Made by a program: the position numbers and the translations under genes. Shown in pieces: positions 111 to 25,175 of a stretch of 36,067 nucleotides of DNA. Where the stretch lies: the NCBI GenBank assembly GCA_905233645.1, contig CAJODZ010000002.1:68366-104432 (forward strand), in the 5' to 3' direction. Under the pieces are notes generated by a model. It ran no database searches and was not told the DNA's origin. It saw only the letters and a program-made list of their open reading frames with translations. Source of the stretch: an uncultured Synergistales bacterium (lineage in GTDB: Bacteria > Synergistota > Synergistia > Synergistales > Aminobacteriaceae). How positions within the stretch are numbered: position 1 is the stretch's first letter; every line of letters starts with the position of its first letter.

Positions 111-240
111 AATAAAAAATACTCATCTCCGAAAAATTAAAATAACCCGTATATTTTAGCGCGTGAATTTACAAATATTACTCAGGCCAAAATTTAAATA
201 CGAATTTTTAAATGCTAAATAATTTTAAAAACAGCTCTAA

Positions 241-366
241 AAAAATTTAACACTTTGTTTTTTGAAAAATATTTATAAAATTTTGCAGGAACAAATTTTT
301 GAAAGGCTTTTTGTAGTTGTAAACGTAGTTGCAAAAATAACAGCTCCCAAATTTTTTAAGGGAACT
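241..366 (-). repeat. Dispersed intergenic repeat, copy A, led by a terminator
   Basis: This is the minus-strand copy of a repeat also found at 4795-4924 and 23726-23863. It starts with a terminator hairpin (AGTTCCC at 366-360 pairing with GGGAGCT at 348-342, then a T-rich run), so it ends the aminotransferase transcript. The core follows: GCAACTACGTTTACAACTAC (332-313), about 50 variable AT-rich bases, and AAACAAAGTGTTAAATTT ending near 242. Core length is about 91 bp. It fills most of the gap 111-444; the rest of that gap shows only AT-rich sequence without an open frame or a clear promoter. Confidence 0.75.
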
Positions 367-444
367 GCTTTATGAAAAATATTATAACAAAATCGCTGTT
401 AAAAATTTTAATCTAATCCGTCAAAAATTCTTTTGCCAAATATA

Positions 445-4756: not shown

Positions 4757-4794
4757 TTTTACGTTTGCAAAATATCGATCCAGTTTTACAAATT

Positions 4795-4831
4795 ACGCTC
4801 CCTGTTAAAAATTGCGGGGAGTGTATTTTTT
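4795..4831 (+). terminator. Intrinsic terminator of leuS
   Basis: ACGCTCCC (4795-4802) pairs with GGGAGTGT (4817-4824), one wobble pair included, across an A-rich loop, and is followed by ATTTTTT. It lies 38 nt past the leuS stop and forms the leading edge of repeat copy B. Confidence 0.8.
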
Positions 4832-4924
4832 GCAACTACGTTTACAACTACAAAAAGGTTTAAAAAATTTAACGGCCGTAAAATTTTATGAAAATATTTT
4901 AAAAAACAAAGTGTTAAATTTTTT
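4795..4924 (+). repeat. Dispersed intergenic repeat, copy B, led by a terminator
   Basis: Plus-strand copy. After the leuS terminator comes the core GCAACTACGTTTACAACTAC (4832-4851), an AT-rich middle containing AACGGCCGTAA, and AAACAAAGTGTTAAATTT near the end, giving a core of about 93 bp. The orientation relative to the upstream gene is the same as in copies A and C. CAACTAC occurs twice in direct orientation, 12 bp apart. Similarity to copy A may continue some 40 bp further. Confidence 0.75.
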
Positions 4925-4963
4925 ATGAGCGTGTGAAAAATTTTTAAGAGCATATTTTTTTAG

Positions 4964-22643: not shown

Positions 22644-23690
22644 ATGAGCGAGTATTCGATTTCAAAAGTCTACGAGACTGACAAACGCGCTAATAAACAA
22701 GTTGAGGCATTATTATTACGTGAAGGCATTCGGCGTGATAAAAATTTAGATTACACTTGTGCAATGTTTGACGATGATTATAACGTTGTTGCGACCGGAA
22801 GCTGTTTCGGAAATACGTTAAGATGTTTAGCCGTAAGCTCTAATCATCAAGGTGAAGGGCTTATGAACGAAGTTATTACGCATTTAGTAAATTATCAATT
22901 CGCGCGCGGAAATTATCATTTGTTTTTATACACTAAGACGAACTCAGCAAAATTTTTCGGGGACTTAGGCTTTTATGAAATCGTAAACATCGCTAATCAA
23001 ATCGTCTTCATGGAAAATAAGCGCACGGGCTTTCAGGATTATTTAAACGAACTCGCTAAAACTAAACAGGACGGCGCAAAAATCGGGGCTTTAGTTTTAA
23101 ACGCGAACCCTTTTACGTTAGGGCATTTATATTTAGTTGAGACGGCTGCCGCTGAAAATGATTGGCTGCATGTTTTTATAGTGAGTGAGGACGCTTCGCT
23201 TGTACCGTTTGAAATCCGTAAAAAATTAGTCATTGAAGGAACGTCGCATTTAAAAAATTTAATTTATCATGACAGCGGAGCATATATAATCAGCAGTTCA
23301 ACATTTCCGAGCTATTTTCAAAAAGACGAGACCGCTGTTATCGAAAGTCATGCGAATTTAGATTTGGAGGTATTTATAAAAATTGCACATTCTTTAGGGA
23401 TTAACGCGCGCTACGTTGGAGAAGAGCCAAAAAGTTTAGTAACAGGGATTTATAATAAAATCATGGCGCAAAAATTACCCGAACATGAAATTAAGTGCGT
23501 GATTATTCCTCGAAAAGCTTTAAATGGCGAAATTATCAGCGCGTCAAACGTCCGGCAGGCAATTAAAAATAATACTCTCGACCAAATTAAAGACCTTGTG
23601 CCTGCGTCGACGTATAATTATTTTACGAGCGATGAAGCTAAAAACGTTATTGCTAAAATTCAAGCCCAATCTAACGTAATTCACTATTAA
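22644..23690 (+). CDS. citC: [Citrate (pro-3S)-lyase] ligase-like protein
   Basis: CitC acetylates the prosthetic group of citrate lyase, activating it. The 348-residue protein has the two expected parts: an N-terminal GNAT acetyltransferase-like domain (about 1-125, with VSSNHQGEGLMNEVI) and a C-terminal nucleotidyltransferase domain (about 145-335) with NPFTLGHLYLVE and ISSSTFPSYF. The RRDKNLDYTCAMFD segment near residue 30 is typical of the family. No citrate lyase genes (citD, citE, citF) or citX/citG are in the window, so the partner lies elsewhere or the protein has a related role. ATG 22644 follows GGAGGT by 13 nt. It is divergent from dnaX across a 129-bp gap. A terminator at 23726 ends it. 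Confidence 0.88.
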   Translation: MSEYSISKVYETDKRANKQVEALLLREGIRRDKNLDYTCAMFDDDYNVVATGSCFGNTLRCLAVSSNHQGEGLMNEVITHLVNYQFARGNYHLFLYTKTNSAKFFGDLGFYEIVNIANQIVFMENKRTGFQDYLNELAKTKQDGAKIGALVLNANPFTLGHLYLVETAAAENDWLHVFIVSEDASLVPFEIRKKLVIEGTSHLKNLIYHDSGAYIISSSTFPSYFQKDETAVIESHANLDLEVFIKIAHSLGINARYVGEEPKSLVTGIYNKIMAQKLPEHEIKCVIIPRKALNGEIISASNVRQAIKNNTLDQIKDLVPASTYNYFTSDEAKNVIAKIQAQSNVIHY

Positions 23691-23725: not shown

Positions 23726-23771
23726 ACAGTTCCTAAAAGATTTTAAAAAATTTTGGGAGCTGTTATTTTTT
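23726..23771 (+). terminator. Terminator of citC, leading edge of repeat copy C
   Basis: ACAGTTCC (23726-23733) pairs with GGAGCTGT (23756-23763), one wobble included, and is followed by TATTTTTT. The loop is A/T only. Confidence 0.75.
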
Positions 23772-23863
23772 GCAACTACGTTTACCACTACAAAAAAGCA
23801 TTTATAAATTTAACCGCCGCATAATTTTTAAGCACATCAATTTTGAAACAAAGTGTTAAATTT
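23726..23863 (+). repeat. Dispersed intergenic repeat, copy C, led by a terminator
   Basis: After the citC terminator the core GCAACTACGTTTACCACTAC (23772-23791, one change from copies A and B) is followed by a middle with AACCGCCGCATAA and the end AAACAAAGTGTTAAATTT (to about 23863). Core length is about 92 bp. Ten bases later the IS605-type element begins at 23874, so the flank seen in copies A and B is replaced by the insertion. Confidence 0.75.
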
Positions 23864-23873
23864 CTTACGGCCA

Positions 23874-24076
23874 GTGAACTACCGCCACTTATAGAAGATG
23901 GCAGCTTCCTTTAATCCTCCTAACCTGAATACTTCTTAGCCTTCAGGATTTCGTTTTACAGGAATCAGTTTGGTACTGTTACCTTACGGGCAACATTTGA
24001 AAACCTGCGCGGCATTGTACCATACGGGCAATTCATCTCCCACTTGAAGAAGTGGGAGTCTTCTTGCCAGTTAATG
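23874..24076 (-). mobile_element. Miniature IS200/IS605-type element with omega/HEARO-like RNA, no transposase
   Basis: This 203-bp stretch is unlike the surrounding AT-rich gaps. Its left end (minus strand) has a perfect 9-bp hairpin, CTCCCACTT with AAGTGGGAG (24037-24058). Its right end has an imperfect hairpin of the GCCATCTT/AAGTGGC kind, followed by GGTAGTTCAC, a common right-end sequence in IS605/IS1341 elements. Inside are further stems (CCTGAA/TTCAGG; GGTA/TACC) and two copies of ACC(T/A)TACGGGCAA. There is no tnpA, tnpB or iscB frame. A TTTAT (24081-24077, minus strand) adjoins the left end as a candidate target site; read on plus, GTGA (23874-23877) fits the HEARO insertion rule. 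Ends are my estimate. The structured part is probably, or derives from, a TnpB- or IscB-guide RNA scaffold. Confidence 0.7.
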
Positions 24077-24115
24077 ATAAAAAAACACCCCCGTTTAAAA
24101 TTTTTGGAGGTGTTT
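24077..24115 (-). terminator. Terminator of the ankyrin gene
   Basis: On the minus strand AAACACCTCC (24115-24106) pairs with GGGGGTGTTT (24092-24083), one U-G pair included, followed by a T run to 24079. The IS605-type element begins exactly at the end of this T run. Confidence 0.8.
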
Positions 24116-24137: not shown

Positions 24138-25175
24138 TTATTTTTTACTAACGGCTTCGCGGAGAACGTTTTTAATTGCGTCGTCTTTAGCTAAATCAAA
24201 AGCGGTATCGCCAACACAATTTTTAGCTTTTAAAGTTGCTCCGGCTTTGATTAAAGTTTTTATTATTTCGGGGTTAGTGCTGTTCATTGCAGCGTACATT
24301 AAAGCTGTGTAGCCTAAACTCGTTTTTAAATTTATTTTGGCTTCAGCCTTAATCAACATTTTTACGATTTCAGGGTTATCATTATTCATCGTAGCAAACA
24401 TTAAAGCCGTTTCGCCGTTTTCAACGCCAGCATCAACATCGAGCAAAACTTTTTTATTTTCAGGGTCGTTGTTATTTTCATTGTCGCTTAAATCAATTTT
24501 TGCGTTTACGTTTGCACCGGCTGCCAATAAACTTTTTACAATTTTGGAATTTCCATTTTTAGCGGCGTACATTAAAGCGGTCATACTATTTTTATCCCTA
24601 GCGTTAATTCTTGCGCCCCTGCTGATTAAAGTTTTTATAACTCTTGAGATATCAGGATTAGAAATATTTTCAGAACACTTCATTAAAACGCTTTTGCCCT
24701 CTTCATTGACAGCGTTGACGTTAGCTCCTGCTTTTATAAGTTCTTGAATTTTTTGCGGCTTAGTATCTGGTGATGACACTGCCTGGAATAAATCAGCGTC
24801 AAAATTTTTCTCACTCGTGATGTTTTGAACGTCTTGCGTTGTATTTTCAGGAGTGCTGTCAAAAATCTCAGGGCTTAAATTTTCCTCGACCGCGATATTT
24901 TGAACATCTTGCGTTGTATTTTCAGGAGTGTTGTCAAAAACTTCGGGGGCTAAATTCTCCTTAACCGCGATATTTTGAACATCTGTTATATTTTCAGGAG
25001 TGCTGTTAAAAACTTCAGGGCTTAAATTCTCCTCGTTTTTAATTTCGGGATTTTCATGCACAGCCGTGTTTATGGTTTTTGCGTGTTTTAGAAAACCTTT
25101 TTTAGAAAAGCTAAACGCAATGTATAAAACGACCGCGAATATAATTATGACCATTAAAATTATTTTGATACTCAT
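24138..25175 (-). CDS. Membrane-anchored ankyrin-repeat protein
   Basis: The 345-residue product has an N-terminal transmembrane helix (about 4-24, IILMVIIIFAVVLYIAF) followed by a Lys-rich patch, so it is anchored with a large soluble part. Residues 49-122 are three near-identical 24-25-residue units (ENLSPEVF...TPEN...DVQNIAV), probably an unstructured spacer. From about 128 on are about five ankyrin repeats (IQELIKAGANVNA; MTALMYAAKNGNSKIV; ETALMFATMNNDNPEIV; YTALMYAAMNSTNPEII), one holding an inserted acidic loop (DLSDNENNNDPEN). Ankyrin repeats bind proteins; the partner is unknown. ATG 25175 follows AGGAG by 14 nt. It is separated by about 70 bp from the transporter gene cluster and has its own terminator. 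Confidence 0.88.
   Translation of the reverse strand: MSIKIILMVIIIFAVVLYIAFSFSKKGFLKHAKTINTAVHENPEIKNEENLSPEVFNSTPENITDVQNIAVKENLAPEVFDNTPENTTQDVQNIAVEENLSPEIFDSTPENTTQDVQNITSEKNFDADLFQAVSSPDTKPQKIQELIKAGANVNAVNEEGKSVLMKCSENISNPDISRVIKTLISRGARINARDKNSMTALMYAAKNGNSKIVKSLLAAGANVNAKIDLSDNENNNDPENKKVLLDVDAGVENGETALMFATMNNDNPEIVKMLIKAEAKINLKTSLGYTALMYAAMNSTNPEIIKTLIKAGATLKAKNCVGDTAFDLAKDDAIKNVLREAVSKK
24810..25031 (-). repeat. In-frame 75-bp tandem repeat inside the ankyrin gene
   Basis: Three consecutive units of 72, 75 and 75 bp encode the 24-25-residue spacer motif. Phrases such as TATTTTCAGGAGTG (plus strand) recur in each. Because the unit is a multiple of three, copy-number change would lengthen or shorten the spacer without breaking the frame. 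Confidence 0.8.

Follow-up and report, generated by a model that had tools for sequence, protein, structure and literature searches.

A PATE-like family of gene-less IS200/IS605-type elements in a Synergistales genome and the putative omega RNA of its intact copies

A segment of 203 bp at positions 23874-24076 (minus strand) of the window, i.e., the entire 36,067-nt stretch of Synergistales DNA that was analyzed, is a gene-less, PATE-like IS200/IS605-type element. The genome bearing this segment contains a family of such copies with defined ends and a target rule, parts of a tnpB element, and an RNA body that is conserved among the copies, and none of the repeat ends that we read offers a plausible match to the guide position of the window copy. 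We regard the family as PATE-like, non-autonomous IS200/IS605 elements, of which the intact copies most likely yield an omega RNA for a co-resident TnpB, with a probability of roughly two-thirds. Mobilization by TnpA, transcription, binding by TnpB and cleavage are the steps of this reading that we infer.

The element, its copies and its insertion sites

The window copy is flanked by a citrate lyase ligase-like gene at 22644-23690 and, on the other side, by an ankyrin-repeat gene at 24138-25175 (minus strand), and the ORF check detected no open frame of 80 aa or longer inside 23874-24076. On the minus strand, the segment reads TTTAT, CATTAACTGGCAAGAAGACTCCCACTTCTTCAAGTGGGAG ... CTTCTATAAGTGGCGGTAGTTCAC, and then TGGCCGTAAGAAATTTAACA. 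The target site TTTAT, which is also the presumed TnpB motif, occupies 24077-24081 directly 5' of the left end (24034-24076), and the latter includes the hairpin CTCCCACTTCTTCAAGTGGGAG at 24037-24058. A -10-like box, TACAAT, was located at 24014-24019 by the comparison among copies, and is followed by a truncated, omega-RNA-like body at 23874-24005, which is matched by the covariance model R1. The right end (23874-23910) contains a hairpin and terminates in AAGTGGCGGTAGTTCAC. All of these features are on the minus strand. The host sequence at the guide position, TGGCCGTAAGAAATTTAACA (23854-23873, minus strand), is the end of copy C of a dispersed intergenic repeat (23735-23873, plus strand; the outer limits were judged by eye). 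Thus, the original prediction of an orphan IS605-type element with two hairpin ends was accurate in coordinates, length (203 bp) and absence of genes, and the guide position indeed falls on the end of repeat copy C in the TnpB-like reading.

Similarity searches found at least 16 places matching the element in the same genome, a draft assembly that totals 1.57 Mb, comprises 94 contigs and is 79.84% complete (40 of the 91 first-look candidates were scored). One of them, on contig C63, is not a gene-less copy but belongs to a tnpB element, of which it is the left end. Both ends were found in nine copies, namely those on C2 (the window copy), C9, C15, C41, C21, C1 and C17 and two on C26, while only the right end was found in three copies at contig ends (C24, C38 and C58) and only the left end in another three (C51, C72 and C82). 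As the half copies at contig ends may belong together, we count 12 to 15 insertions, at least 12. The right-end flanks, of which 12 were readable, are mutually unrelated except for two that touch repeat copies. The matches are therefore more than a chance resemblance and represent a family of copies with constant ends and unrelated flanks. A SAM riboswitch (RF00162, 85 bits; L011, 1641-1741) was found about 1.3 kb from one of the copies.

The other eight copies with two ends are 232-273 bp in length, and the window copy is a short variant, as 48 nt of the body are missing relative to other copies. The alignment of copies places the junction of this gap at 23971/23972, where the hairpin CCTATGGAGCGTAGG and its neighbors are absent. 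The window copy therefore does not retain the complete scaffold with its conserved hairpin (132 nt in comparison with 180 nt in the C24 copy), and was scored by R1 at 129.8 bits, against 178-215 bits for four fuller copies of the same genome that were not used in building the model. The C9 copy is also devoid of parts of the body, provided that the assembly is right. Contigs C38, C58, C51 and C72 terminate at or near the position of the gap and the copy at C26:49888 contains a run of 19 N there, implying that the 48-nt gap may be an assembly join, although N may also denote sequence that was withheld. The window copy is thus defective or mis-assembled, and, as given, makes a poor guide scaffold.

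We then considered the sequences on the target side. Among the 13 readable left flanks (12 copies and C63), 11 end in TTTAT and one each in GTTAT and TTTAC. We compared 48 left ends of this genome and its relatives, and in 45 of them the base following TTA was complementary to one particular left-end base, the pairs being T/A in 35, A/T in 8 and C/G in 2 (target/left end) and the exceptions being L018, L080 and L104. This count is based on 55 printed matches, from which seven that are not left ends (L024:837, L028, L044, L048, L059, L079:779 and L109) were left out; the script's own count was 45 of 51. Pairing between left end and target is known for IS200/IS605 transposases and predicts such complementarity. 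The rule that target T, A or C goes with left-end A, T or G amounts to a simple sequence readout of the target. Furthermore, the joined flanks of the C1 and window copies aligned across the junction with other, intact copies of the repeat, which supports both the assignment of the ends and the lack of target duplication, the sequences compared being repeat copies rather than orthologous empty sites. Altogether, the insertions lie 3' of a short target that is read by the left end and is not duplicated, the near-terminal palindromes match those of an IS605-type element, and no transposase gene is present inside, as expected for PATEs.

The TTTAT of the window copy derives from the T run of a terminator-like hairpin (24086-24112, minus strand; -13.2 kcal/mol) downstream of the ankyrin-repeat gene and directly before TTTTTTTAT; the consensus terminator scan did not include this hairpin among its calls. 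A hairpin of -8 kcal/mol or better together with at least 6 T was found in 5 of the 13 left flanks and in 4 of 44 control sites, the control being a small one from a single window with gene and repeat limits set by hand, and these figures hint weakly at a preference for terminator T runs. The left flanks in which a hairpin precedes a T-rich end belong to L001, L009, L013, L017 and L018.

The RNA body and its relationship to tnpB elements

The genome yielded six TnpB-type (PF07282) matches, five of which scored above the cut-off. Three of them are whole frames of 401, 426 and 431 aa with both OrfB_IS605 and Cas12f1-like_TNB domains. The other two are at the ends of contigs C68 and C57, where the 3' end of tnpB is followed within a few bases by GCCACTTCTTAAGTGGCGGTAGTTCAC, the last 17 nt of which are identical to the last 17 nt of the window element. 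The end of contig C63 bears nearly the same left end (with a hairpin shorter by a few bases), a TATAAT box and the first codons of a tnpB, which that query matches as well. Based on these three contigs, the genome contains parts of a tnpB element whose two ends nearly equal those of the gene-less copies. The parts would together constitute one whole tnpB gene, which is not assembled whole in the draft. Relatives in the genus possess whole, tnpB-only elements of about 1.3 kb with these ends (L075, L083, L077, L072, L085 and L092), as well as a decayed one (L086), and the domain scan of L072 recovered OrfB_IS605 and Cas12f1-like_TNB. The left end of the window copy is 82-89% identical over 54-60 nt to those of six tnpB elements found in the genus, one of them decayed, and 75% identical to that of a seventh, L092, while its right end is 92% identical over 37 nt to those of L075 and L083. 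The search for full-length relatives with tnpB, which the original prediction had named as a check, was thus answered by whole elements in the genus and by parts in the genome itself, with nearly the same ends. Y1 transposase (tnpA) sequences in this genome were found solely as fragments at contig ends or as copies with stops.

Other elements of related kinds were encountered along the way. A second TnpB lineage, with the right end GAGTGGTTCAC, is represented by L026 and L027 (on C21 and C14 of this genome, G000), whose genes encode 426 and 431 aa and closely resemble each other. In G021 (C48; L071 1501-1717 and L103 1709-1917), a different gene-less element of about 217 bp resembles a tnpB element from which the interior was deleted while the 3' RNA region and both ends were kept, suggesting that gene-less cassettes arose more than once. 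A third gene-less element, of about 290 bp, was inserted after ATTAT in G005 (C85; L102, 2542-2829 of the reverse-complemented region), and has a tnpB-type RNA region with another version of the hairpin described below.

The body of the fuller copies spans about 180 nt, is conserved in five genomes of a single genus, and ends in a TnpB-type right end, from which we assign a TnpB-like rather than a HEARO/IscB orientation. In the 13 readable copies of this genome, the -10-like box is TATAAT in nine, TATAAC in two, TGTAAT in one and TACAAT in the window copy; all six copies of four relatives have TATAAT. The consensus promoter scan, which requires a -35 element, called no promoter at this box. 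When seven copies of four genomes were compared with the C17 copy at aligned positions, using exact left-end starts and leaving out G034, the middle was 90-96% identical, the left end plus promoter 70-87%, and the right end 89-100%, i.e., as conserved as the middle. If gaps are counted, the value for the middle drops to 84% and 76% in two copies of G007. In G034, 109 of the 122 aligned positions of the middle are kept, and the left end is poorly alignable. Within the family, only one of the 36 pairs predicted by RNAalifold changes on both sides; the copies are too alike for more than slight covariation.

With R1, the covariance model of the whole body, matches above 90 bits were restricted to G000, G018, G007, G026 and G034. 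Including weaker matches, at least 24 of 61 genomes were positive (44 candidates scored per genome), all of which are among the 37 genomes of the genus and none among the 24 outside, and many of the weaker matches are right ends of tnpB elements. A plain DNA search detected part of the element in 29 of the 61 genomes, a single one of which, G045, is outside the genus. The exact 19-nt core retrieved seven loci from the genome collection, six of Synergistales and one of Ruminococcus, the latter an unrelated match without the rest of the element. The named carriers are Synergistaceae and Fretibacterium contigs, the sources of which include goat and red deer. No exact match to the 19-nt core was found in viral contigs.

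Blastn of the body against tnpB gave no convincing match. Nevertheless, the hairpin ACCTATGGAGCGTAGG of the body has counterparts in tnpB 3' ends. Among the 11 listed right ends of tnpB type, 10 show it by pattern (e.g., ACCTGTGGGACGCAGG and ACCGTAGGGACTACGG), the pattern having been written after inspecting the same sequences, and the eleventh, L076, has the version ACCGCAGGTGCTGCGG that the pattern missed. The hairpin is absent from L107 and L100. In nine versions of the hairpin, 98.1% of the cells are paired and the covariation amounts to 0.569, against 0.172 in shuffles (reached by 0 of 500) and at most 0.259 when the same versions were slid; this control is not to be read as a probability, as the versions are related to each other. 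The version in L076, a tenth one that was new to the analysis, is paired at all 6 of its 6 positions; with it, the values become 98.3% and 0.633. We also subjected three bodies without the right end to local alignment against nine 3' ends (eight of tnpB and that of the gene-less L102). In 18 of the 27 alignments, the score was reached by no more than 9 of 300 shuffles; this did not hold for L075 (26 to 198 of 300) or L085 (13 to 44). On the other hand, R2, the model of the body without the right end, found no significant match in the tnpB loci (L104, E = 0.13; L025, E = 2), and the R1 scores of 24-46 bits in nine full-length-derived or fragment tnpB loci are explainable by the shared right end. 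What the body appears to share with the TnpB scaffold is thus the right end and one covarying hairpin, and the similarity of the rest is not significant. As R2 found no significant match in the tnpB loci, we term the body omega-RNA-like and propose its function with moderate confidence. By position, the scaffold would end at the right end and the flanking sequence would serve as the guide.

Two readings of the body should be weighed against each other. The gene-less copies may be plain DNA passengers, in which TnpA recognizes the ends and the conserved middle has another function or none, for instance in single-strand folding or in the control of TnpA, and does not guide TnpB. The lack of a significant R2 match in the tnpB loci fits a passenger, as do the terminal-only PATEs described for Haloquadratum (PMC3119063) and, if the assembly can be trusted, the parts of the body missing from the C9 and window copies. 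The covarying hairpin common to tnpB 3' ends, the higher conservation of the middle relative to the left end at aligned positions, and the TATAAT box retained in most copies speak against a passenger, and we consider this alternative the less likely one.

We therefore favor the omega RNA of a non-autonomous element. In fuller copies, the layout is a left end, a -10-like box, a structured RNA of about 180 nt (minus strand) and a right end. The element would be moved in trans, in single-stranded form, by a Y1 transposase (TnpA) that places it 3' of TTTAT, with the left end pairing with the target during insertion. In intact copies, transcription that continues past the right end into the adjoining host sequence would most likely yield the omega RNA, which could be used by the TnpB that the co-resident element, nearly identical at its ends, encodes. 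As the guide would match the empty site of the copy itself, the element could be restored after excision. The window copy would have landed where an ordinary repeat copy ends, after the T run of the terminator-like hairpin. Should the RNA be functional, a non-autonomous element would be able to provide the nuclease of another element with guides in trans, which would explain the resistance of gene-less copies to loss and would provide a naturally separated TnpB scaffold for comparison with those embedded in tnpB. A more specific version, to which we give odds of about one to two, hence a tentative one, depicts a self-contained, gene-less guide-RNA transposon, each intact copy of which has its own promoter and a diverged omega scaffold, takes its guide from the landing site, and parasitizes the co-resident TnpB. 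If true, a single genome would harbor about a dozen scattered guides against the empty sites of the copies themselves, some of them beside host terminators.

The dispersed repeat and the plus-strand reading

The original prediction went on to propose that the RNA of the window copy could guide a TnpB or IscB encoded elsewhere to further copies of the repeat. The repeat itself is genuine: its 17-nt core (up to 2 mismatches) gave 75 matches in the genome compared with 3 for the reversed control, and the window contains further copies at 200-370 (minus strand) and 4780-4945 (plus strand). Its layout is a terminator-like hairpin (ACAGTCCC...GGGACTGT and a T run), followed by GCAACTACGTTTACAACTAC, which is GTAGTTG twice on the other strand, and then AAACAAAGTGTTAAATTTTT. 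In several copies, a TGATATAAT-like box lies upstream of the hairpin. We read 72 repeat ends including the window copy, leaving out three places with two mismatches.

That the guide position is repeat sequence speaks for retargeting, but the repeat ends themselves speak against it. TTTAT or NTTAY stands in register at none of the 71 other ends, and TTTAT occurs within 20 nt upstream in any register at 5 of the 72. Five mismatches in the first 10 guide positions are commonest, and 55 of the 71 ends have 4-6. The best guide match among the repeat ends, L037, has 2 mismatches but the motif AAAAA. Among 1980 TTTAT-flanked 20-mers in the stretches of this genome that were examined, the best has 8 mismatches to the guide. 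When the whole draft was searched for the motif followed by the guide, allowing 3 mismatches over the 25 positions, one site besides the window was identified, C44:10657-10681, which reads ATTAT and then TGCCCGTAAAAAATTTAACA and agrees with the guide at 18 of 20 positions (mismatches at guide positions 3 and 10). This site is a repeat copy that had escaped the search with the core. As GTTAT or ATTAT also precedes the left end in three further members of the family (the C15 copy, L092 and L102), C44 is the one place left for retargeting. The incomplete body of the window copy, without its hairpin, is a further argument against it.

The proximity to the repeat does not demand a special preference, either. 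The C1 and C58 copies are also within 30 nt of a repeat copy, so that 3 of 12 right-end flanks are near one, and 8 of the 44 intergenic TTTAT sites of the small, hand-delimited control likewise lie in a repeat or within 30 nt. The position of the window copy beside the repeat is apparently by chance. With in-register motifs at 0 of 71 ends and one imperfect site in the draft, we rejected redirection to the dispersed repeats as highly improbable, and the idea of the repeat family as a guide target falls away.

A HEARO/IscB-type guide RNA read on the plus strand, the second of the two orientations that the original prediction had allowed, was also rejected and carries a negligible probability: the plus strand does fold better than shuffles (z = -2.74), but the minus strand folds better (z = -4.33), the HEARO covariance model gave no match at gathering scores or up to E = 10 (the scan to E ≤ 10 returned 12 matches, all under gathering scores and none of them HEARO), and the ends belong to tnpB elements, so that the TnpB-like orientation on the minus strand is the one that stands. 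The search for IscB-type proteins (PF14239) gave no match in this 79.84%-complete genome, nor in the control genomes.

Comparison with known systems

PATEs are transposase-free and have near-terminal palindromes like those of IS605-type transposons, as described for Haloquadratum walsbyi (PMC3119063), and a PATE of about 271 nt from Halanaerobium hydrogeniformans has retained the final 58 nt of tnpB together with the whole right end (PMC7290912). The family studied here resembles PATEs in being short and gene-less, in having palindromes as in co-resident IS605-type elements, and in the short target at one end. It differs from them in its core, where a -10-like box is followed by a conserved, RNA-like body that is present in five genomes of one genus and is mostly not recognizable as tnpB. 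Our literature search met no PATE with an expressed omega RNA, which is no evidence of absence, as subscription papers were mostly outside its scope.

For ISDra2, it has been proposed that TnpB cuts the empty donor joint beside the target motif and that repair restores the element (PMC8612924), and the TnpB scaffold has its 3' boundary at the right end, after which the guide follows (PMC10278001). The putative RNA is similar to the ISDra2 omega RNA (reRNA) in that the scaffold extends to the right end, the guide lies in the adjacent host sequence, and the presumed motif equals the target. In contrast to ISDra2, no tnpB lies alongside, the motif is TTTAT instead of TTGAT, the RNA is a putative one known from sequence alone, and the homology of the scaffold is limited to the right end and one hairpin.

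Standalone IscB omega RNAs and HEARO RNAs are guide RNA loci dispersed without their nuclease, in which the guide is at the 5' end and the structure is different from that of the element described here. The present family shares with them the dispersed loci without a nuclease, but not a match to the HEARO model. Counterparts within the genus are the TnpB-only (IS1341-like) elements (e.g., L075, L083 and L072), which have similar ends and target but carry tnpB, with the related hairpin located inside its 3' end.
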